Source: an uncultured Rhodocyclaceae bacterium
Lineage (GTDB): Bacteria; Pseudomonadota; Gammaproteobacteria; Burkholderiales; Rhodocyclaceae
Direction: 5' to 3'
DNA length: 64,000 nt
NCBI GenBank assembly: GCA_907163075.1
Contig: CAJQTY010000001.1
Location: forward strand, 2,666,001-2,730,000
Positions within the stretch are counted from its first letter, which is position 1, and each line of letters begins with the position of its first letter. This document shows positions 44,342-58,440 of this stretch, piece after piece. The notes under the pieces were generated by a model. That model did not search any database. It was not told the origin of the DNA and saw only the letters and a list, made by a program, of their open reading frames with translations. A program made the translations under genes and the position numbers.

Positions 44342-44895
44342 GCAGTCCTTGATTTCTTGGGGTGTCTGTTGGTTAAGACAATCGATGCGGGAATAATTCC
44401 TGCGAAGCATTTCGAAGCACGGCGGTAGAAAACCATCATAGGCTGCAACCCAAGGCAGAACCATGCAGCGCAAGCATTTGCCAGGAATTGGCCGTGGTCC
44501 GCAGACCTCGATGCCGCGAAAAACTTGGCATCAGGCAATCCGCTGCCTGGAACATCGCGCTGCGCGCGGTAGTGTTGTGCTGGATAGAATTGAATTGTTT
44601 AGCCTGGGCTGGTCGGCGAGCAGGGCCAGAGAACCGCAAGCCAGGGATGGCCGCTCGGCGAGCCAGGACAACGAAACGGTCGTGACGCAGTACGGCGAAC
44701 GTTCAAGCACAGAGGGTGTCTATTTTGCAGATAGGAATTCTCCCTGCACCGATGCCATGGCGGGCAGCGACACAGAACGCCATTATCGTGTCGTGGTCGC
44801 CAGCATTGCGTGTGCCCTTAGTGTTGTCGTCAGCACACACCTTGGCCAAGGGGTTCGACATTCCATCCCTACCCGCAAGGCACAAGGAGAAACGA
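44342..44895. other. Gap without a recognisable gene
   Basis: The 554 bp between the divergent phosphatase and msrB genes must hold promoters for both. I see no credible frame: open stretches have no ribosome site and unnatural composition. No IS ends or hairpins of note were seen. Confidence 0.4.
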
Positions 44896-45345
44896 ATGCG
44901 GAAGTTCAGCAATAACCACGAGGCCATCCTAAAGCTCTCGCCAGAGCAGTATCGCATCACACAGCAAAACGGTACGGAACAGCCCGGAACTGGAAAATAC
45001 CTCGATACCAAGGAACCGGGTATCTATGTCGATATTGTGTCGGGTGAGCCGCTATTCGCCTCGTCCGACAAATTTGAATCGGGATGCGGCTGGCCCAGCT
45101 TCACCAAGCCTATTGAACCGGCCAGTATCAACGAACTGCAAGACACCACATATGGTGCGGTCCGCACCGAGGTGCGCTCGGCACAGGCAGATAGCCATCT
45201 CGGGCACGTGTTTCCTGACGGTCCAAAGGAGCGTGGCGGATTGCGCTATTGCATCAACTCGGCCTCGCTGCGATTCATCCCTCGCGACACCATGGCGGCT
45301 GAAGGATATGCGGCTTACTTGAACCAGGTGGAGAATGTCCAATGA
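44896..45345 (+). CDS. msrB: Peptide-methionine (R)-S-oxide reductase MsrB
   Basis: A 149-aa reductase of oxidised methionine (R form). Conserved blocks are [41 protein letters not shown] and the catalytic Cys in [12 protein letters not shown]. The usual zinc CxxC pairs are absent, as in the metal-free branch. AAGGAG is 7 bases before ATG 44896, ruling out the long upstream frame. Its TGA overlaps the msrA ATG. Confidence 0.93.
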
Positions 45346-45869
45346 CTGAGGAACGCGCCGTTCTTGCCGGCGGTTGCTTCTGGGGGGTGCAGGACCTTAT
45401 TCGCCACTACGACGGCGTACTGTCAACGCGGGTCGGCTACACGGGCGGCAGCGTACCCCAAGCGACCTATCGCCATCATGGTACCCATGCCGAAGCCGTT
45501 GAGATCATCTTTGATCCTGCCCGCGTCAGCTATCGACAGATCCTCGAGTTCTTCTTCCAGATTCATGACCCGAGCACGCGCAATCGCCAAGGCAATGACG
45601 TCGGGAGCAGCTATCGGTCGGCGATCTTTTACACTAGCGACGAGCAACGGCGGATCGCCGAGAACACGATCGCTGACGTTGATGCTTCAGGCCTGTGGCC
45701 CGGCAAGGTCGTAACCGAAGTCCTTCCCGCCAGCGATTTCTGGGAGGCTGAACCCGAGCATCAGGATTACCTCCAACGATTTCCCGGTGGCTACACCTGC
45801 CATCTCGTCCGGCCCCACTGGCACTGGCGGTTGCCGATTCGCGCCGATAAGCGTTCACGCGAGGCGTGA
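45342..45869 (+). CDS. msrA: Peptide-methionine (S)-S-oxide reductase MsrA
   Basis: A 175-aa reductase for the S form, with the catalytic motif [12 protein letters not shown] at residue 10. Other family blocks are [49 protein letters not shown] and [17 protein letters not shown] overlap with msrB shows translational coupling, so both methionine sulfoxide isomers are repaired together. Confidence 0.95.
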
Positions 45870-48667: not shown

Positions 48668-48912
48668 CTTAGCGTATGCGCCCTCGGTCGGGTAATTGCT
48701 ATGGTCCATGCCCCTATTAGCGATTTCCAACCACGTATTGCACATAGCCAGAATGCTGACCTGATTCAAGTCGTATTTTTTGCGATCTGATACCCCGCGA
48801 CCAAAACGCATTCTTCCATTTCAACATTCAACTTAACCACCACTAGGTCGACAGCGATAACATTTCGCAAATATCACTGCAATACCCGATGTTTTTCGCA
48901 TTTATCGTTGGA

Positions 48913-49023
48913 GCTTACAACGAGATTGGGCTGGCATGCGGGGTTCATCCGATCCAGGTTGGGCCGTGGAAGAAGGAAATCCAGGAGCAAGCCAGCACGC
49001 TGTTTGAAGGTAAGCGCGGTCCC
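48913..49023 (+). pseudogene. IS3-family OrfA remnant
   Basis: The frame EIGLACGVHPIQVGPWKKEIQ followed by EQASTLFEGKRGPK matches the middle of IS3-group OrfA (helix-turn-helix C-terminal half, VHPxQVxxWKKE). Both ends are missing. It lies in the short gap between the prepilin and TOMM loci. Confidence 0.65.
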
Positions 49024-49059
49024 AAGCTCGCCACTTCGCCCCCATTGGGCCTAGCTGCG

Positions 49060-49878
49060 TTAGCTGCGGCTGGTTAGATTGTCTACTACCGGTGAGCGTG
49101 AAGCCTCGTGCAGCACACGCTCCAGCACGCCGACCGCGATACCGTAGAGTGGCGCCTCGGCGTCGATATTCATGTGCAGCAAGGTGCCGAGTTCCACGTC
49201 AAAGAAACCGCCAAGGTCGCAGTTGCCCAGCCCGAGGGCGGCCGACAACAAATTGAGGTTCTGCGCGACGTGACCGGCCTCGAGCACAATGTAGCGATAG
49301 CCGCGGTCACCGTATTTCTTCATGCTGCGCAGAAAGTCCGCACCAATCAAGACGATCAGCGGCGCGTAACCGGCGTAGGTTTGGCCCATGAACAGATATG
49401 TAAGGATGCGCGGCGGTATCGTGCCATTACGAAGCTGTTCGAGCCCGTGACTAACAGGCGCGTAGCGGTACACGCCAGGGTCGAGGCGTTCGATTCGGCT
49501 GGCGATGAGGTATAGGTCCAGAGGATACATGCTGCCGCCCGACGGCACGGGGCGCTCGTAGAACGGCAGCGCACCGAAAGACGATTCACCGATGATACCG
49601 TACGAGTATTTAAGGAGCGCAGACACCGAATCAAGCGGAACCGACACGTCGGCGAACTGCCGGCAAGAATGGCGACCTTGGATGGCCTCAATGAGCCCTG
49701 CAGCGCTGTGCTGTGGCGTCGGCAACGCATAGTACGGCGTGTCTAGCAACTCGCGCGGTGGCTCTGGAGTGTCGTCGACGCCTGGCGACAGGGTGTTGAA
49801 TGTCCACCGCGACGTGTTGCGATGGAAAAGCCACGTCAGTGGAAAACGCTCATGAAGGCTGCGCTTAAGCTTGTTCAT
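49060..49878 (-). CDS. SagB-type flavin dehydrogenase of the TOMM locus
   Basis: A 272-aa nitroreductase-fold protein that oxidises azolines to azoles on RiPP precursors. SagB-type features are AIQGRHSCRQFADVSVPL (FMN contacts), PSGGSMYPLDLYLIA, GVYRYAPVSHGLEQL and YRYIVLEAGHVAQNLNLLSAALG. Its ATG overlaps the YcaO stop (ATGA). It is the last gene of the precursor / ThiF-like / YcaO / SagB series, so azole rather than only azoline products are expected. Confidence 0.88.
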   Translation of the reverse strand: MNKLKRSLHERFPLTWLFHRNTSRWTFNTLSPGVDDTPEPPRELLDTPYYALPTPQHSAAGLIEAIQGRHSCRQFADVSVPLDSVSALLKYSYGIIGESSFGALPFYERPVPSGGSMYPLDLYLIASRIERLDPGVYRYAPVSHGLEQLRNGTIPPRILTYLFMGQTYAGYAPLIVLIGADFLRSMKKYGDRGYRYIVLEAGHVAQNLNLLSAALGLGNCDLGGFFDVELGTLLHMNIDAEAPLYGIAVGVLERVLHEASRSPVVDNLTSRS

Positions 49879-51218
49879 GACAGCGGATGTGGATCCGGAT
49901 TGAGGTCGGACAAGCTGGCGTCGTCATCGCGGAACCCTAGAGTCCGCGCCAGCTGGAACAACCGACGACCGCCGAGGCGCCGCTCGTGCGCACCGAAATG
50001 GATTGGCTGGAAGTCGGGGATGATCGCACGTGCCGTGTAAAGACCTAGCAGAGCCATATCGGCCGGGGTCACGTCGAAATAGCAAACCTCCTTGCCGATC
50101 GCCTGCATCGCGTTGTCCATCTGCGCGAGTGCATGCGCGCTGACAACCGGCTCCGCATTCCACTCGAATGACTCGAGGGTTGCACGACGTACGAAATCAA
50201 AGCGCGGTAACATCACTTGGCTGGCGTACAGCAGATCGTGATCCTCCAGTTCGACTACCTGCTGCGGGTCAGCGAGTAGCCTAGCCAGTCGTTCACGTGC
50301 CTCCGGCGAGCGCATGCGGATGCGTAGCGCCGGCCGCACCTGCGCGGTCTCTATCACCGCGCCACGCGCAGCGGCTGCTGCGTCTAGGCCTGCCCCTAAT
50401 CCCACTACGACAGCCGGGCCTGCGGCTCCCAGGTCGATCGCCAGCGCCATGAAAACATGGACTGCATGGTCAGCCGGTAGCAGGTACAGTTCGATATCAA
50501 CCCCGCGGCGACGATAGGCGGAACATAACTCACGCGTGCCGGGATCGGGGTGGTCCGCCACATCGATGCGCCGCGCCGGCAGTCGGTTCATCCACCAAAT
50601 CATGAAAGCATCGCGCTCGATAACCTCGTAGCTGGCCTTGAGCACCGCATCCTCGAGGCTCTGCCCGGAAGCAAGCCCGCTAGACGTGATTGGGCACAGG
50701 AATTCCTCGTGACATCGGGCGTTGTAGGACAGAAACACGCCGATCGCCGGTATCCACACGGGCTCTTCACTGCCCACCGTATTGCCTCGGACCCAGCCTA
50801 ACGTGCTGTCGTCGCTATATGGCGCGTAGCGCAACACCGGGTACTGATCCTCCGCGTACAGCACTAGCGCGCGTGGATCGAACGATTTGCCATCCAGTTC
50901 GGCGCGCCGTGCGTAGTGGATCTGTGATGGCTGCCAGCACGACGCACTGTAGCGCTCCACTGCTTCGCCCAGGGCGCTGATCCGCGCCGCTTTATCGGAG
51001 AATCCCTTACCGGACGCGACTTGCGTGGTGTTATTTTCGATCTTTCTGATGAACTGGCTATTGGCCAGCTCAGCGCGGTAAATGTAGGGCAGCAACGGTT
51101 CGCAGTAGTCCTTATGGACCCGTTTGCATTCGGTAACAATCCCACACAGCGGGCTGAGCAAAAAGGGCTCGCTGGCGAGCAGGTCAGGTTGCGGGCAGTC
51201 AAGGTTGGTCGATGGCAT
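49875..51218 (-). CDS. YcaO cyclodehydratase of the TOMM locus
   Basis: A 447-aa YcaO ATPase that activates backbone amides with ATP so Cys, Ser or Thr side chains cyclise. The ATP-binding acidic motifs are in GKGFSDKAARISALGEAVERYSA and SLEDAVLKASYEVIERDAF, each quoted in part. The C-terminus PDPHPLS is Pro-rich, as in TOMM YcaO proteins. ATG 51218 is chosen because GGGGGAG lies 5 bases before it; the gene overlaps the ThiF-like gene by 20 bp. Its partner is the discrete E1-like protein upstream. Confidence 0.9.
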   Translation of the reverse strand: MPSTNLDCPQPDLLASEPFLLSPLCGIVTECKRVHKDYCEPLLPYIYRAELANSQFIRKIENNTTQVASGKGFSDKAARISALGEAVERYSASCWQPSQIHYARRAELDGKSFDPRALVLYAEDQYPVLRYAPYSDDSTLGWVRGNTVGSEEPVWIPAIGVFLSYNARCHEEFLCPITSSGLASGQSLEDAVLKASYEVIERDAFMIWWMNRLPARRIDVADHPDPGTRELCSAYRRRGVDIELYLLPADHAVHVFMALAIDLGAAGPAVVVGLGAGLDAAAAARGAVIETAQVRPALRIRMRSPEARERLARLLADPQQVVELEDHDLLYASQVMLPRFDFVRRATLESFEWNAEPVVSAHALAQMDNAMQAIGKEVCYFDVTPADMALLGLYTARAIIPDFQPIHFGAHERRLGGRRLFQLARTLGFRDDDASLSDLNPDPHPLS

Positions 51219-52332
51219 GAACACTCCCCCTCTTCACTGCCTGCAGTTTCCCACGGCACGACGGGCAGTCGGGTCGGTGCAGGAAATGGTGCTCGCGCAT
51301 CGTCGATTCCAGTGCGTCAAGTTCCAGAACGCGGCCCGCTGTCGTGGGGACGCCGAGTCCGAGCACGATCTTCGCGATCTCCAACGTCGTGACTCCAGCC
51401 GCCCAACTGATCAGCGGCAGGAAAAGAGGGCGACCCGCCGCAGCGGGTGACCTGCTCTTGTCCATCGCCGACTCGTAGGCCATCGCCTCTGTGAAGTCAT
51501 CGCAGGCCGCCATGCGACGCATACGCCAACACATATAGCAGGGTGTCTCGCCCGGAAACACCATTGGCCCAACCAGCGCACGCACACCCTGCAGGTCGCA
51601 GTACAGCGACGGCGTGCCCGTCTCGAGGCAGGCGCCATTGATCCAATGGTGGGCGGCACTGAAGGCGCGGTCGAAAGCGCCAACGGCGAAATCTGCGTCG
51701 CCGACTATCTCGCGTACGCCGTCCTTTGTCACCACCTCACCGGGAAACTCCCACACTTCGGTTGGCCCGCGCCGGGATTCGATGAGTTCAGCGATTGCGT
51801 GCTGCCGGGTCAGGCCGGGTCGCAGCTCGTCGATGAAAGGCATTGAAACTAGGTCGCCGGTGCGGACCTCTCCCGGGTCGACGAGCGTGAGGTGGCCGAC
51901 GCCCAGTTGAGCCAACTGAAATGCAACATGGCCGCCAACATGCTCAAGCCCGACTATCGCGATTCGTAATGTCCGCATACGTGCTATCGCGGCCTCCACC
52001 GGCACACCGATGACATTCAAGAGCGCGTGCCATGGCGAATCGGCCGGCGCCTGCTGCTCAGAGGGCGACTCAGAACGGCTAATTAGCACACCGGCGCTGA
52101 GGAGCCGGTCAACGACGCTGCGTATCGCATCCGGGTCGTAGCCGGACAGATGCATGCACAAATCATCAATGCTTCGCCACTCTCGCACAAAAGGGATCAG
52201 CGTCTCGCCGACCAATGACACCGACGCACCTTCCAATCGTAGCGCGACAAAGTCCGATCGAAGTAACAATGAATCGTCACAGGGTACCGCGTCGACGCCA
52301 GGAGAAAGTCGTATCCACTGCATAGGAGTCAT
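51199..52332 (-). CDS. ThiF/E1-like TOMM cyclodehydratase partner (precursor-binding)
   Basis: About 377 aa. The N-terminal 95 residues look like a winged-helix RiPP recognition element (SIDDLCMHLSGYDPDAIRSV). An E1-like Rossmann domain follows (LRIAIVGLEHVGGHVAFQLAQLGVGHLTLVDPG, in parts), with zinc-binding CYMCW and CPSC pairs at the C-terminus. Such C proteins bind the leader peptide and present it to YcaO. ATG 52332, ATG 52323 and codons up to 52380 are possible starts; no ribosome site decides. Confidence 0.85.
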   Translation of the reverse strand: MTPMQWIRLSPGVDAVPCDDSLLLRSDFVALRLEGASVSLVGETLIPFVREWRSIDDLCMHLSGYDPDAIRSVVDRLLSAGVLISRSESPSEQQAPADSPWHALLNVIGVPVEAAIARMRTLRIAIVGLEHVGGHVAFQLAQLGVGHLTLVDPGEVRTGDLVSMPFIDELRPGLTRQHAIAELIESRRGPTEVWEFPGEVVTKDGVREIVGDADFAVGAFDRAFSAAHHWINGACLETGTPSLYCDLQGVRALVGPMVFPGETPCYMCWRMRRMAACDDFTEAMAYESAMDKSRSPAAAGRPLFLPLISWAAGVTTLEIAKIVLGLGVPTTAGRVLELDALESTMREHHFLHRPDCPSCRGKLQAVKRGSVHAIDQP

Positions 52333-52443
52333 CTGTCCACAGTCGGTGAGGGTCGGGAGACAGTGACGCATATGTAACAAGTCCGGCGCGCACGGCCTGT
52401 TGCACCGGGCTCTCGGGTGGGGCGTAGCTGCCGTCGGTTGGGA

Positions 52444-52773
52444 CTATTCGCCTAAGTGCGAGAAAGAGCCCAAGCCCTGCTGCAGGCCGCCGATATTGCA
52501 TGGGCCGCAGGTGCATTCGTTGATGCAGCGCACGATGCAGCGCGTTGCGCAGGCACTAACCCCTCCACATCGCACCACGACGCAGCGGAAACAGTCGTTG
52601 ATACCGCAGAACTCGCCGTAGTCAGCAGCCAAGACGTCGCGTACTTTCGTGTAGGTCTTTAGTTCCTCGGCACTCAATTGCGAGGTACCGGTGCGCTTTG
52701 TCGCCAGTTCGAGTTTCTTCTCGAGTTCGACGATCCGCAGCTCGAGTTGTTTGAGTTCGTTGGTGTCGGCCAT
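52444..52773 (-). CDS. TOMM/RiPP precursor peptide with ten-cysteine core
   Basis: A 109-aa peptide from ATG 52773, preceded by AGGAGAC. Residues 1-54 form a helical, coiled-coil-like leader (LKQLELRIVELEKKLELATK). The core begins about residue 55 and has ten cysteines at 56, 61, 64, 69, 75, 79, 83, 87, 89 and 92, mixed with Arg, Val, Gly and Asn. A Cys-free tail (GLQQGLGSFSHLGE) follows. Every Cys is a potential thiazole. The spacing is not the strict CxxCxx repeat of heterocycloanthracins. It is first in the series and the likely substrate. No ABC exporter is in the locus. Confidence 0.85.
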   Translation of the reverse strand: MADTNELKQLELRIVELEKKLELATKRTGTSQLSAEELKTYTKVRDVLAADYGEFCGINDCFRCVVVRCGGVSACATRCIVRCINECTCGPCNIGGLQQGLGSFSHLGE

Positions 52774-53600
52774 GATCAAGTCTCCTATTGATTGACTCAA
52801 AAAGCAGGATTAACCCTGCGCCATGTAGGCTGAAAGCAACAACACCCGTCGTTTAAAATAACCGCGCCCGTGTGTTGAGCGAGGTGTAGAAGAAAGGCGG
52901 TCAAGACGATAAACGTCCACTATTCTGATTTCGAAACTGCACCTTTTTTCAGCCACTAAACCAGTATAGTTGGAGCTCCGCCTTATTCAACCCAGATAAT
53001 CTATTGGCCGTTTTTAAGCAGCATGGATAGTGCTGGTGCCAATTTCCAGCCAACTAGCCTCCTCGACGTTTGAGCCAGCAGACCATCGGCAATTCCATTT
53101 ATCTACAGCCCGTATCGACGCTTTAACGATCGGAACAGGCGGCGGATTTCATCTGAATATGTAGCACAAAGGACTCTTTGCATCCGCAAGGGATGTCCAT
53201 TCGTGCATGCCATTGAGATTGCTCACGATCGCCAATTGCCTAGTCCCGTCCATAGATTAGCAACTCCCCTAAGTGCCTTCACCGTCTTCCTTGGATGTCC
53301 TCAGCAATCTGCTGCACCAGGTTTGACTATTTCGCATCATTCATTTGGATGATGCGCTCAGTATATGAAAGGAAGTAGGCTTTATCGTCGACAAGATCAA
53401 CCCGAGAGTAACGAACTAGTCGGTGTAGCTATCCCGTTGAAGGACGGACGCCTTGTCAGAAGCTTAAGAAAGAAACGATGACTTATGTGTGACTGATGCG
53501 CAGTTGTGCTGTTGTGACAGACGGAATTTTGCTTAGGGCTAGGACAGTGCCAATACATAGACATAGCAGGTTACTTTTGACCGTCGATTAGGGAGGTGTC
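52774..53600. other. Long non-coding gap between divergent TOMM and protease genes
   Basis: 827 bp of about 50% GC between two divergent gene groups. No frame with a ribosome site was found. It must contain both promoters. A small inverted repeat (catcattcatttggatgatg, near 53335-53355) is visible. Such length suggests decayed sequence or unusual regulation. Confidence 0.45.
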
Positions 53601-54482
53601 ATGTACTTCGCAACCGAAGAAACAAATAGTCAAAATCACCACCGTTCAAAAGGGGTTTTTGTCGGGGTCTTGTGCACTGCACTGGGTGGATGTGCGATGA
53701 CGTCTCCTAAGTATGAGAACGGACAGTATTTACCCCCTCCATCAGAACACGCGCTTAGCATTTCTCTGGAAAAGCAGTCGTGTGACCCAAATAGGGTAGT
53801 TTCAGTGATTGGGACAGCATTGCTAAGCACTGTCGTTCCAGCCTTGGCCAACTATGGTTACGACCAGTTTGTTAATTGGCTAGACAACAAGGCTGCCAAT
53901 CTCTCGTCTTCCTCTTCCGGTATCGCAACCACACCCTTTTATTACTATGAGGATGGTGGCGGGAAACCAAAACCGATGGGTTGCCTGATACTCAAGCGAG
54001 CAGAAGATCTAACCGCGAAGTTCGAACTTACGCCAATTGGTATAAACGCCGAGAAGGAAGCCGCATATTGGCATATGACGCCATCTAGTCTTGAATTCAA
54101 GAAATCCGAGGCCAAGGAGGGCGCTGACCAAGAAAAAAGCGTGGTAATCGAGATTGCCTTCGCCACACCAAGTGTGGACGGCAAGCTCGCCGACTTCTTT
54201 GTGGGGACTTTCGATCTGGGGAAACACAAGGCTGGGCCGGCTGTGATTACTAAACAGATGCTTGTGGGGCAGGACAGTGGGCCTATTGTATTTCCGAAAC
54301 CTAACGACAACGATCGGAGCCTGACGATGAAGATCACGGCTTCTGTCGTCGAGCAAGGGGAAGGGCGCGATTGGATCCGCGGGGTCACAAATTCGCTAAG
54401 AGAGAAAGAACAACGAGATCAAATTCTAAAGCAAATCCTCGACGCCATTGGCAAAGCTTTGGGGAAAGGGGCTAAGCAATGA
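53601..54482 (+). CDS. Predicted lipoprotein of unknown function
   Basis: A 293-aa protein with a strong GGGAGG site before ATG 53601. The N-terminus has a basic stretch, a short hydrophobic run and a lipobox (VLCTALGGCAM), so it is probably lipidated at Cys31 or so. A second hydrophobic segment (VVSVIGTALLSTVVPALANYG) may contact the membrane. The rest is soluble, with a basic amphipathic C-terminus. No family recognised. It overlaps the C11 peptidase gene by 4 bases. Confidence 0.7.
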   Translation: MYFATEETNSQNHHRSKGVFVGVLCTALGGCAMTSPKYENGQYLPPPSEHALSISLEKQSCDPNRVVSVIGTALLSTVVPALANYGYDQFVNWLDNKAANLSSSSSGIATTPFYYYEDGGGKPKPMGCLILKRAEDLTAKFELTPIGINAEKEAAYWHMTPSSLEFKKSEAKEGADQEKSVVIEIAFATPSVDGKLADFFVGTFDLGKHKAGPAVITKQMLVGQDSGPIVFPKPNDNDRSLTMKITASVVEQGEGRDWIRGVTNSLREKEQRDQILKQILDAIGKALGKGAKQ

Positions 54483-55828
54483 AAAGTGCTAGAAGAGCGC
54501 TCCTTAAAGCGTTCGTCGCCGCTGGACTTAGCTCTGCGTTTAGAGACTCTGCGGCGCTTGGCGGGGCGCCGAATACGGCAGAATGGTTGATCCTAGTTTA
54601 CATGAACGGTAAGAACAACCTCGTGTCCTTTGCGTTGCAGGATTTCCTAGAAATGGCAAGCGTCGGTTCGACAGATGCCGTTTCCGTAGTAGTGCAACTT
54701 GGTCGTCCAGAGAAGGGCAATCATCCAACCTATGATGCTTGGTCGGGTGTTAAGCGCTACTTTGTTAAGAAGGATATGAAGCCCAGTGTCGACGAGGCAC
54801 TGATGCATGTTGCGGACGCGAAGGATCCAAAAGGGGATATGGGTTCCCCCGCCGTGCTAGATGAATTTGTCGCGTGGGCACTAGCCAAGTACCCCACACG
54901 TAAGAAACTATTGGTGATCTGGAATCATGGGCAGGGATGGCGATTTCAGGCCCATCCATCAACCATGCGCTTCGCCGCTGCGACGCGCGCTCTGACGCGG
55001 GACGAGGCGAGCGAACTCAGTGACGCGCGAATAGTTGGCACGTACCGCTCTGTTTCTTCCGATGACGACCACCGTAGCATTCTTTACAACAAGCAAGTGC
55101 AGACGTTACTCGAAAGGCGTGCTAGCGAAGGAATTCGGTTCAACATCGTGGCCTACGACGCTTGCCTAATGTCTATGATTGAAACCGCCTATTCGCTCAG
55201 GAACTGCACCGATTACCTCATTGGCAGCCAGGAACTGGAGCCAGGTGCTGGCTGGGATCACGGCATTTTTCTAAAGAAACTGATAGCGAAGCCTAGCATG
55301 AACCCCGAAGAGGTAGCACGTACCGTCGTTGAAAGCTATCAGGAACGGTACGGCAATTACGACATGACCACGCTGTCGGCAGTGCGCCTCAAGGGCATCC
55401 AAAACGTTTGCCAGACAATTTCGGTCGCCGCCAAGGCACTAATGAACGATCGCGATGCGAGCTATCCGGTTCTCGCGAAGGTGCGCGGCTCACTTAGGGC
55501 CTTCGCGGATTACGAGGGCGTAGGTTTCGGGGTGGATTGTGAGAGCCTCTTCGAGCGTATTGCCGCCACGTCGGTTGATCCTGCTGTAAAGAATAGCGCT
55601 ATCGATGTAGCAGCTGGGGTGAAGTCGCTGATCGTGGCAAATTACGCGTCAGACCAGACGAAGGCATACTCCCCGCGGGGCCTCGCGATTTATTTCCCTT
55701 TGACTCGCAGTGAATTCGAACGGGATCCTGACAGCAAAGGTTACCTCAGGTCGAACGCCGAATATACAGTTGACTTCGTGCAGGACGTTGAGTGGCCGGT
55801 GCTGCTGAAGGACTACCTCAAGCTGTGA
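54479..55828 (+). CDS. Clostripain-like cysteine peptidase (family C11), probably exported
   Basis: A 449-aa peptidase. The N-terminus MKSARRALLKAFVAAGLSSA carries a double-Arg signal-like start. The catalytic dyad is His150 in LLVIWNHGQGW and Cys229 in VAYDACLMSMIETA. The segment LIGSQELEPGAGWDHG is typical of the substrate pocket, and C11 enzymes cut after Arg or Lys. ATGA overlap with the lipoprotein gene indicates one operon. The Arg-rich core of the divergent precursor (FRC, VRC, TRC) could be a substrate, which is speculation. Confidence 0.85.
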   Translation: MKSARRALLKAFVAAGLSSAFRDSAALGGAPNTAEWLILVYMNGKNNLVSFALQDFLEMASVGSTDAVSVVVQLGRPEKGNHPTYDAWSGVKRYFVKKDMKPSVDEALMHVADAKDPKGDMGSPAVLDEFVAWALAKYPTRKKLLVIWNHGQGWRFQAHPSTMRFAAATRALTRDEASELSDARIVGTYRSVSSDDDHRSILYNKQVQTLLERRASEGIRFNIVAYDACLMSMIETAYSLRNCTDYLIGSQELEPGAGWDHGIFLKKLIAKPSMNPEEVARTVVESYQERYGNYDMTTLSAVRLKGIQNVCQTISVAAKALMNDRDASYPVLAKVRGSLRAFADYEGVGFGVDCESLFERIAATSVDPAVKNSAIDVAAGVKSLIVANYASDQTKAYSPRGLAIYFPLTRSEFERDPDSKGYLRSNAEYTVDFVQDVEWPVLLKDYLKL

Positions 55829-55838
55829 TGAGCTTGTC

Positions 55839-57728
55839 ATGCGGATGACTCAGAGTTGGCGTGCGTCATTCCTAGCATTGTGGCTCGCCGGCGGCTGCAC
55901 TGGTTTTTGGACAGCGTCGGCGGCGGGTGCGACGCATTGCATTGCGGAAACCACACAGCCGAACGGCCTGTACCTTAATCGCTACCAGGAACTGAAGCCG
56001 CTAAGGGAATCTACCGATAGGGCACGCGGCTCCGGCGAACCAGAATACAAGACCGGAAAGTTCGCACTTATCCTCGTGGGTTTATTGGTAGAGCGGTCTC
56101 CCGGACACCCGATCTTGCCTGGCTCGGCACCAGAGCTATCGAAACCAGTGCAAGTCCGCGCGCAGGTGTTCGCAATAGGGAAAGACGGCAATCGTACTGC
56201 GTTGTGCTCGCATCAAAGCTCGTTGAGAGTGAACACGGTCATCATGTTGCGTGTCGAATCCGAGGAGCCCGTCCAGCACCTTGCTATACACTACTCTTCA
56301 GTGAAGCCACTGCCGTCGGACGTGGTCGTCAAAGCGAGCGTAAGTTCAACGGTGCAGACAGCCATCGAACTGTTCCCGCTGTCCTGTCCCGAAGTAGTTC
56401 CGAGCGCTCTGCAGGAGATCTTTGAGTTACGCCATATCGACCAAGCCACCATCGGGCCCGGGATGTCCTGCCGACACCGGATCGTTACAAAGTCTCCGCA
56501 CAGCCTACTCGTCTCGTTTCGGCAATCCCAAGTAGACAATCACCCCGTGGACGCCAAGCTCAGCGCGGGTTTCAAGCCAGCTAATTCATATGCCGGATTT
56601 GCTAAGCTTTGTGGCGCGGAATTCAAAGGACAACCGAGCGGAGCTTATCTCGTTGGGCTTGATTCGTCGCTGCCAGTATTGAGGGATGGGGTGAGCCAAT
56701 TATGGGCACTTGATATCGCGGCTGACTGCTCCGCTGAATACGGGCTTGAAATCGATGTATTTGAAGTCGTGCCGAAGGTTGGTATCGCGATCGTGGAAGA
56801 CCGCGCACCTATAGCCCCAGCGTACGGCGCACCGGCATATCTCACTGACCTCCGCTTGAGCTGTTTCAGCGACCTAAAATCGCACATGTTTGTGGACGCG
56901 TTCCGGAGAAGAAAAGCGAACGTTGATGGCAAGACCTTCCTTGATATTGTTGTGGCGCGCCGCAATGGCACGCTCATGCCCCATGAACGTGCGTTGGTCG
57001 AGAAAGCAGCCATGTATGCCATTTCTGCTTGGAATCGCTCTTGCCTGATCTGCGGACCAGACGGACTTTCCATCGCACGCGTAAACGGCGAGCTTTTCGC
57101 CAGTAGCCTAATTATAGAATTGCTGAATGCAGCCAGTGATGGGCTGGCCACGCAGCCGGGCACCACACCACGCTCCCTTGCTGGCGATGTTTTAGTAGAA
57201 GACTGGTCAATGCGTGTCACGTCGAATCTTCGTGCCAGGGTGCCGGCGTTCCTGCGCATGACACCTAGAGACGTCTCAATCCTCTGTGGAAGCATTTGGC
57301 TGACCAGACTATTCGGCCAAGGGGCAAGTTGTGTTCGCAACCAACCGATCGCAGAGAATGAGGGGGCTGTCTTACGAATTGTGCTCACGGACGGTTATAC
57401 GGTATGCGATTCAGACCCCGACACTATTGCGTGCGAGCAGTATGGTACGCAGATCGAGTTCAACATCCGAGATTTCACCTATGTGGTAGACTCAAATCTT
57501 GAGGTTGCCTTCGGTAGAGGAAAGCGCTCGGTCTCGCTCGATCTGGTCATAGCGCATGAGATTGGACACTGGCTGGGGTTGGGTCACGTCGATTCGCTCG
57601 ACGCGATTATGTCCACGACCACTACAAACGCGCGGTGTATTAGCAATGCGGATGTCGATGCGCTTATGATGCTCAATGCAGCTAGCGCGCTACCCCGCCC
57701 AGCAATAAATGCACTCAAATACAAGTGA
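55839..57728 (+). CDS. Secreted metzincin-like zinc metalloprotease
   Basis: A 629-aa protein with a signal peptide (RASFLALWLAGGCTGFWTASAAGA). Near residue 572 it has the metzincin zinc motif AHEIGHWLGLGHVDSLDAIM, with HExxHxxGxxH and a following Met-turn. The first 350 residues show no family I know and may be a substrate- or wall-binding region with several Cys. It starts 10 bases after the C11 gene and completes a three-gene secreted-protein operon. Confidence 0.8.
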   Translation: MRMTQSWRASFLALWLAGGCTGFWTASAAGATHCIAETTQPNGLYLNRYQELKPLRESTDRARGSGEPEYKTGKFALILVGLLVERSPGHPILPGSAPELSKPVQVRAQVFAIGKDGNRTALCSHQSSLRVNTVIMLRVESEEPVQHLAIHYSSVKPLPSDVVVKASVSSTVQTAIELFPLSCPEVVPSALQEIFELRHIDQATIGPGMSCRHRIVTKSPHSLLVSFRQSQVDNHPVDAKLSAGFKPANSYAGFAKLCGAEFKGQPSGAYLVGLDSSLPVLRDGVSQLWALDIAADCSAEYGLEIDVFEVVPKVGIAIVEDRAPIAPAYGAPAYLTDLRLSCFSDLKSHMFVDAFRRRKANVDGKTFLDIVVARRNGTLMPHERALVEKAAMYAISAWNRSCLICGPDGLSIARVNGELFASSLIIELLNAASDGLATQPGTTPRSLAGDVLVEDWSMRVTSNLRARVPAFLRMTPRDVSILCGSIWLTRLFGQGASCVRNQPIAENEGAVLRIVLTDGYTVCDSDPDTIACEQYGTQIEFNIRDFTYVVDSNLEVAFGRGKRSVSLDLVIAHEIGHWLGLGHVDSLDAIMSTTTTNARCISNADVDALMMLNAASALPRPAINALKYK

Positions 57729-57773: not shown

Positions 57774-58440
57774 CTAACTAAGCAGCGTAGGCGGCATGAG
57801 GATGCTGAAAATAGGAACGGATGCGCAGCGGCCATTGAGCGATGCGACGAAGAGGCTGGCCGGCCAGATCTCGCCGGTGCCCGCTACGATGATCGGTACT
57901 GTCGGGCCGGTATAGTCAGCGAACAGCTTCTCGCCGGCACGGTGAATTTGGCGCATTGGGCGTTTCAGCTTCCCAGTCCAGTCATTGTGACGGGTGCAGA
58001 AGGCCGCGTACTGGCAACCCCGTCCGCCGACCGCTTGCAGGTACGCTTCCCAGATGAGCGTCAGGGTGACGCCTTTCTTCTTCAATTCCTGATGAACCAG
58101 GGCGTAGTCGGGTTCGGCGTAGGTCGGTTCGCGAGCTGCCGCTTGCCGGTACAGCCGTTTCTCCAGCGCGGAATCATCAAGGTCGTTAGGCAATGGCCAA
58201 GTCAGACCAGCAGCGGCAGCGGCAGCGGCCAGCCGAATGTATTTGGCGACCCGCCATTGGAAATGTTGAGAGCCCGAGCCGTCGCGTCCAGGCTGAGCCC
58301 GGCGCTGTGGCAGTAGCGGAGTACGTCTCGTACCTTGCGCATGAATAGTCTTTCCTGAGGCATCCCCGTCCGCTTTCGAAAAAAGCGTCGAGGGTAGCGG
58401 TGTTTCGCAAAGGTCGACCTCGACAAGCAGGGCGTCATTT
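57774..58440 (-). pseudogene. IS21-family IstA transposase remnant, frameshifted
   Basis: Two overlapping frames carry the N-terminal half of IstA: MRKVRDVLRYCHSAGLSLDAT with the helix-turn-helix, then in another frame LEKRLYRQAAAREPTYAEPD and IHRAGEKLFADYTGPTVPII, which begins the catalytic core at the first Asp. The rest of istA and all of istB are missing. The gap 57729-58588 holds nothing else. Confidence 0.8.

Follow-up and report, generated by a model that had tools for sequence, protein, structure and literature searches.

A TOMM Cassette With a Cysteine-Rich Precursor Peptide in an Uncultured Rhodocyclaceae Bacterium and Its Relatives in Distant Phyla

The Four-Gene Cassette

We analyzed a stretch of 64,000 nucleotides from an uncultured Rhodocyclaceae bacterium (contig CAJQTY010000001.1, positions 2,666,001 to 2,730,000; hereafter the window), which carries on its minus strand a cassette of four genes, in the order A, C, D, B, that belongs to the thiazole/oxazole-modified microcin (TOMM) or linear azol(in)e-containing peptide (LAP) type. 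All four open reading frames (ORFs) are open and their coordinates were re-checked. An earlier note on this DNA had described four minus-strand genes forming one unit, with one overlap of 20 bp and one of ATGA, and this operon layout was confirmed: C and D overlap by 20 bp, and D and B share the ATGA. Gene A (52444..52773, minus strand), identified by ORF calling, by its homologues and by a TAGGAGA stretch seen by eye upstream, encodes a precursor peptide of 109 residues that divides into a leader (approximately residues 1-55), a cysteine-rich core (56-92) and a cysteine-free tail (93-109) with the motif F-x-x-L-G near its end. The core holds ten cysteines within 37 residues, exactly where they had been placed before (positions 56, 61, 64, 69, 75, 79, 83, 87, 89, and 92), at the irregular spacing 5, 3, 5, 6, 4, 4, 4, 2, 3.

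The three enzymes were assigned by family models above curated cut-offs, as the earlier reading had anticipated. The C protein (51199..52332, minus strand) joins an N-terminal domain resembling the RiPP recognition element (RRE; RiPP, ribosomally synthesized and post-translationally modified peptide) to an E1/ThiF-like domain with two CxxC pairs, and matches TIGR03882 (56.5 bits, cut-off 36.9) and PF00899. The D protein (49875..51218, minus strand) is a TOMM-type YcaO cyclodehydratase, as judged from TIGR03604 (298.4 bits, cut-off 219.25), PF02624, solved structures in the PDB and its place in the tree described below; its C-terminus reads PDPHPLS, and we take the PDPHP end to be the PxPxP-like feature of TOMM YcaO proteins. 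The B protein (49060..49878, minus strand) is a SagB-type FMN-dependent azoline dehydrogenase (TIGR03605, 139 bits, cut-off 78.4; PF00881). Solved relatives include MccB for C (by profile also TruD and LynD), TruD, LynD, and MusD for D (the first two being nearest), and SagB-type oxidases as well as McbC (E 1.5e-10) for B. While the C gene is where it was said to be, its start needed revision: alignment with homologues makes ATG 52332 more likely than the TTG at 52380, although the frame is also open from the latter. Counted from ATG 52332, the gap between A and C is 111 bp, and sites resembling ribosome-binding sites lie ahead of A and D (by eye).

The RRE-like region, also noted earlier, corresponds to C residues 1 to about 90. 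A profile built from 15 relatives and compared with the PDB gave matches to the recognition domains of LynD (E 1.3e-4), PbtF (3.8e-4), TruD (0.0017), and MusD (0.006), which are weak but consistent, and an AlphaFold2 model of C (12 sequences, mean pLDDT 83.6) places strands followed by three helices in the N-terminal region. Judged from this profile, C is predicted to have a leader-recognition domain of the kind seen in LynD, TruD, and PbtF, to which it would be related. The CxxC pairs, likewise pointed out before, show no change in any of the 12 C regions that were aligned.

A Conserved Precursor Family

Cysteine-dense stretches of this kind are rare in the window: among 56,762 overlapping stop-free 37-residue stretches in its six frames only 14 hold at least eight cysteines, and all 12 that were listed lie in this core. 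Neither the precursor nor any of nine family members matched an NCBIfam model at E 1, and the precursor stayed below every Pfam cut-off (closest model Swi5, E 0.11, 13 of the 22.1 bits required). Plasmid records gave no match at E 0.01, viral contigs held no relative, and PHROGs returned one marginal match (E 0.014) to which no function is assigned there.

Relatives were collected with a profile of five D proteins, which returned at least 591 stretches from the genome collection, at least 540 of them relatives, and the best 80 loci were kept (L numbers below); a scan of genome contigs with P0003 alone gave no match, whereas the profile scan did find relatives. The search for precursor homologues covered the ORFs of the loci collected up to then. 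Homologues adjoin the same enzymes in Georgenia (two loci, 55-56% identity, E about 1e-37), Thiodiazotropha (49%, E 2e-30), Propionicimonas (51%, E 1e-28), Micropruina (two loci, 40-45%), and Ginsengibacter (37%, E 1e-9), with weaker matches in Kribbella, Acidobacteriota, and Rhodobacteraceae. A Chloroflexota contig starts inside the precursor gene (CINECICGPCNICG...RFGGLGG; profile E 4e-4), which adjoins the best-matching enzymes. Cysteine-rich homologues therefore occur in four phyla, or five when the cysteine-poor Acidobacteriota precursors, related by their leader, are counted. The novelty first claimed for this locus must be split accordingly: as far as tested the precursor does fit no characterized class, but what is novel is a family, and its standing as a betaproteobacterial oddity falls with the homologues found beside the same enzymes elsewhere.

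In an alignment of nine precursors that includes the window sequence, C61, C69, C87, and C92 are kept in all nine rows and C56, C79, C83, and C89 in eight, so that eight of the ten cysteines are present in at least 8/9; C75 (6/9) and C64 (4/9) are less well kept. Also invariant are L10, R13, E18, E36, and V44 of the leader and F104, L107, and G108 of the tail. The ends of the core, with their FCGINDC and ECTCGPC blocks, are conserved across phyla, as is the tail. In this alignment most cysteines are preceded by Asp, Glu, Pro, or Arg, and CxxC-like spacings are present. For the Georgenia and the Micropruina pair alike, the ratio of nonsynonymous to synonymous substitution rates (dN/dS) comes to 0.17, calculated over few sites, which points to purifying selection on the precursor gene. 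Homologues in several phyla together with this selection rule out a chance or mis-called ORF.

In a tree of 82 D proteins, built by a quick method with Shimodaira-Hasegawa-like approximate likelihood ratio (SH-aLRT) support only, the window protein falls in a clade of 14 rows (SH-aLRT 99) that spans five named phyla: Actinomycetota (7), Pseudomonadota (2), Acidobacteriota (1), Bacteroidota (1), and Chloroflexota (1), in addition to the window and Nonomuraea. A candidate precursor lies beside the enzymes in 12 of the 14 clade loci, and nine of these 12 precursors contain at least nine cysteines (that from Chloroflexota lacks its beginning). B stands beside the cassette in 11/14, and C and D are fused in 12/14, being separate in the window and L016. 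Gene order is the same in the relatives.

The cassette is rare, and on this the precursor and enzyme searches agree. Among 395 genomes of the family the precursor was found in the window's own genome only; at E 1e-20, three of the 399 genomes sampled from the order had D, its own included and no other of the family; and C in five of 398 genomes of the phylum at E 1e-12, its own included and just one other strong. The Georgenia precursor, searched across its class, was similarly confined to its own genome (1/296). A precursor profile run over 13 genomes gave a single match in each of nine, always at the cassette, and none in the other four (L017, L023, L022, and L055); L017 and L023 do have a candidate precursor beside the enzymes, which the profile missed, and L055 has a precursor of another type. 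The last locus belongs to "Betaproteobacteria bacterium GR16-43," and its precursor is 100% identical to that of G922, a genome in the window's order. The cassette is a compact module that occurs in distant phyla, and it most likely reached them by transfer.

Comparison With Known Systems

The cassette shares with the TOMM/LAP class its B, C, and D proteins, a leader-core precursor and the RRE in C; it differs in that neither an exporter nor an immunity gene nor a protease was found linked to it, and in its cysteine-dominated core with conserved ends. As far as tested, the earlier statement that no characterized TOMM class fits holds, since no library model exceeded its cut-off and no named class was found in the literature searched. 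Heterocycloanthracins come to mind because of their cysteine-rich core and B protein. However, they have a C-D fusion lacking the N-terminal recognition part and a separate F protein, whereas the window has two separate proteins C and D, an RRE-like domain within C itself and no F in the cassette; cysteine spacing in the window core is also irregular. The window precursor hit no NCBIfam family at E 1, which bears on the TIGR03601-type precursor of heterocycloanthracins insofar as the release includes that model. Streptolysin-like cytolysins resemble the window in having separate SagB-, SagC-, and SagD-type enzymes, and in the passages describing them their clusters are reported to contain a CaaX-like protease and an ABC exporter (PMC4603692), neither of which is among the nine window neighbors scanned. 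TOMMs with nitrile-hydratase-like leader peptides (NHLP) or Nif11 leaders differ too: at E 1, neither Pfam nor NCBIfam gave a match to such a leader. These checks of defining features rule out all three identities.

Two further groups are uncharacterized. Anabaenasins are described as having Gly/Cys-rich precursors in the part of Cox et al. (2015; PMC4603692) that treats them, and the Nostoc-type loci in our collection, with separate C and D proteins and Gly/Cys-rich precursors, would correspond to them when compared by description rather than through named sequences of that study. Weak similarity links the cyanobacterial precursors to that of Paracoccus (E 5e-4 to 0.009); their D proteins form a clade apart from the window's and their cores consist of GGC/CRGC repeats. 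For mobilisin the same source, where it describes the group, gives only B, C, and D with no precursor identified (Cox et al., 2015; PMC4603692). The window cassette was compared with it on this description. An unnamed group in that study may also hold relatives (Cox et al., 2015). No paper naming this precursor family was found in open-license PMC full text, a search by text in which the precursor sequence itself was not used.

Variants with a different architecture are the TOMM loci of Paracoccus and other Rhodobacteraceae that carry an rSAM_ocin_1 methyltransferase (L012, L024, L079, and others). Leader and core of the Paracoccus precursor are homologous to the window's (E 9e-9 as a pair), with CINEC and an FGGLG-like end in common, but these loci differ in an extra radical SAM C-methyltransferase, a separate D clade and longer cores. 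A B12-type enzyme of this kind (TIGR03975) was identified at L012:6001-7872, the one locus given a family scan, and it and its homologues lie between precursor and C in seven Paracoccus-type loci (L012, L024, L032, L046, L071, L079, and L084). Their gene content suggests that this subfamily makes methylated peptides.

Other cysteine-rich precursors were seen along the way. Rhodobacteraceae TOMM precursors with GACMPAAGACM- or GACFPAA-type repeats (L025:7265-7744, L027:7198-7746, L044:7170-7709, and L026:7134-7661) contain 16-20 cysteines in the ORFs as called, some of which are extended upstream, and have a leader related to that of the Paracoccus precursor. Candidates with dense CxxC or GCGGC repeats lie near YcaO genes at L054:7236-7655, L055:7382-7786, L066:7345-8004, L074:7630-8043, and L075:7381-7968; these hold 16-32 cysteines in the ORFs as called, and the hosts are Hellea, a betaproteobacterium and Myxococcota.

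Proposed Function

We consider it likely that the window cassette is a TOMM/LAP unit that turns core cysteines into thiazolines or thiazoles and whose precursor belongs to a scattered family. This is supported by the B, C, and D models above cut-off, the RRE match, the solved relatives, the gene order, the kept cysteines, selection, the single precursor match at the cassette in nine of 13 genomes and the D clade. The RRE of C would bind the conserved leader, and its E1-like domain would present the core to the YcaO protein D, which, presumably using ATP, would cyclize core cysteines to thiazolines; B would then oxidize the thiazolines, in part or entirely, to thiazoles. The predicted product carries several, at most ten, cysteine-derived thiazol(in)es between FCGINDC and ECTCGPC, followed by the conserved cysteine-free tail. 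Leader binding, cyclization and azoline oxidation are described for this enzyme set in the relevant part of Cox et al. (2015; PMC4603692).

A number of observations weigh against this interpretation. The ring chemistry is a prediction from the genes. Many cysteines follow Arg, Pro, Glu, or Asp, and azoles are usually preceded by small residues. Two of the 14 clade loci (L011 and L022) have no recognizable precursor nearby, and the search next to the cassette turned up no B in L011, L017, and L022. Three of the 12 clade precursors are cysteine-poor, with two cysteines in L016 (L016:1592-1894), three in L017 (L017:7528-7779) and one in L023 (L023:7697-7963), so the core is not fixed, and the enzymes may not need a poly-cysteine one. 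The L017 precursor has an Asp-rich core and is only weakly linked to that of the window (pairwise E 0.003), while L023, despite its single cysteine, retains the tail RFADLGG (RFxxLG). The "up to ten thiazoles" of the earlier note go beyond what the sequences show, given the cysteines that follow Asp, Glu, and Pro and the three precursors with so few. Base composition lends no support to horizontal transfer either: the G+C content of the cassette (60.7%) is reached by 170 of 603 same-size segments of the 64 kb and does not set it apart as foreign, and the AT-rich part is the upstream flank rather than the cassette.

Export, Processing and Fate of the Product

The lack of an exporter in the cassette, correctly observed before, is common to the relatives and not peculiar to the window. 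Flanks were compared across 13 clade loci (ORFs of at least 90 aa within 6 kb, E 1e-6, congeneric pairs left out; L013 has no flanks). None of the flank genes reappears at a set position, so that an exporter or protease linked to the cassette is not evident, and none of the window's flank ORFs has a homologue beside another cassette. What does recur are ABC-type ATPases (L011, L018, L020, L021, and L050), whose side and strand vary; a LuxR-type AAA regulator (L017, L022, and L023); and pairs of other genes. Since the comparison revealed no dedicated protease or exporter that accompanies the cassette, either host enzymes process and release the peptide or the product stays in the cell.

One rival view is that the peptide is secreted and acts, as is usual for LAPs, as a bacteriocin or toxin of narrow spectrum, its exporter and its protease (e.g., TldD/E) being encoded elsewhere and borrowed from the host. 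We regard this as a serious possibility, to be held tentatively and at somewhat less than an even chance. Microcin B17 and klebsazolicin are described in the pertinent passages as relying on TldD/E encoded outside their clusters (PMC10885120). The window's host carries two TldD/E-family genes on another contig, and a Pfam scan of nine ORFs around the relatives' cassettes found ABC-2 type transporter genes 2-4 kb away in L021 and L015, which are potential exporters there. However, when 12 genomes of the D clade and that of L055 were searched, TldD/E-family genes, which include the microcin B17 protease, were found in only seven of the 13; the two Georgenia, the two Micropruina, the Propionicimonas, and the Ginsengibacter genome gave no match (all drafts, three of them metagenome-assembled genomes), and we rejected TldD/E as the leader protease of the whole family. 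The absence of any flank gene in a fixed place, and core ends that are conserved across phyla rather than hypervariable, also speak against a bacteriocin.

The window's own neighbors were scanned with Pfam as well: the nine comprise a pseudopilin-like protein, Sel1, MsrA, MsrB, a phosphatase, members of the C11 and M10 peptidase families and two without a match. Three consecutive plus-strand genes at 53601-57728 encode one of the Pfam-matchless proteins, a clostripain-family (C11) peptidase and a matrixin-like (M10) protein. The two proteases, which lie upstream of the cassette, were considered as maturation enzymes and dismissed, having no flank homologue beside other cassettes; the C11 gene, moreover, was found in one of 28 genus genomes, its own. 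Overlapping genes for MsrB- and MsrA-type methionine sulfoxide reductases lie at 44716-45869 on the plus strand.

Alternatively, the modified peptide may be a cell-associated factor, such as a metal ligand or a redox or signaling molecule, that acts inside or at the producer and is no antibiotic. This appears possible, though on balance unlikely. It would fit the flank comparison, the single precursor match per genome wherever any was found, the purifying selection on the core and the conservation of core ends and tail across phyla, with RFxxLG kept even in the single-cysteine L023. On the other hand, nothing that recurs beside the cassette hints at a cofactor or metal role, the spread is patchy (1/395 family genomes; 1/296 genomes of the Georgenia class), and clade cores with one to three cysteines exist.

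It is also conceivable, if rather improbable, that the cysteines are mostly free or metal-bound and that the enzymes form one or a few rings. The Asp, Glu, Pro, and Arg residues ahead of most cysteines and the CxxC-like spacings would agree with such a peptide, as would the clade members with one to three cysteines that retain all the enzymes or all but B. Yet no metal-site family matches the precursor (Pfam, NCBIfam, E 1), and a dedicated cyclodehydratase and dehydrogenase point to more than incidental modification. One may speculate, with considerable doubt, that the product is an unexported polythiazole, a small ring-bearing protein that perhaps keeps its leader or tail and serves within the producer itself, say as a metal or redox ligand, instead of being a secreted antibiotic. 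It would then be a LAP whose entire genetic unit consists of the precursor and the ring-forming enzymes, a self-sufficient module moving between phyla.

Edges of the Cassette

Upstream, a hairpin followed by five T residues (52804..52819, minus strand) resembles a terminator and comes after a promoter-like site (52990-52963) but ahead of the start of the precursor. The scanned stretch contains seven terminator-like sites, against 4.0 (standard deviation 2.2) in shuffled sequence, and an Rfam search of the upstream region gave no match at E 1; the hairpin is possibly an attenuator, or due to chance. At the other edge, a fragment of an IS3-family transposase (48889..49077, plus strand) overlaps the end of gene B. 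It had no Pfam match and shows 59-64% identity over residues 7-50 among the matches listed, five of which are annotated as IS3-like ISPpu29 family. The remnant of an IS21-family transposase (57774-58193, minus strand) lies on the other side of the region. These fragments, together with the absence of the precursor from all others of the 395 family genomes and of D from any other family genome among the 399 of the order, might suggest a decayed or chance cassette in which the precursor is no real gene or the enzymes are pseudogenes, an idea so improbable that it may be set aside, being already contradicted by four open frames, the ribosome-binding-like sites of A and D, 55-56% identity to Georgenia and low dN/dS.

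Significance

On sequence grounds the precursor family appears to be new, a variant within known TOMM/LAP cassettes whose homologues have no known product. Although it matches no Pfam or NCBIfam model over cut-off, it links scattered TOMM cassettes through a leader found in five phyla and a cysteine framework found in four. Named strains among the relatives, Georgenia satyanarayanai and Paracoccus denitrificans, are ready test systems, and the nearly cysteine-free variants with kept enzymes would probe the substrate needs of the TOMM cyclodehydratase. With similar cassettes in such distantly related bacteria, the product is worth isolating. If its members really manage with no exporter, immunity gene or leader protease linked to them, they would make a direct case for LAPs whose role is not that of a secreted antibiotic.

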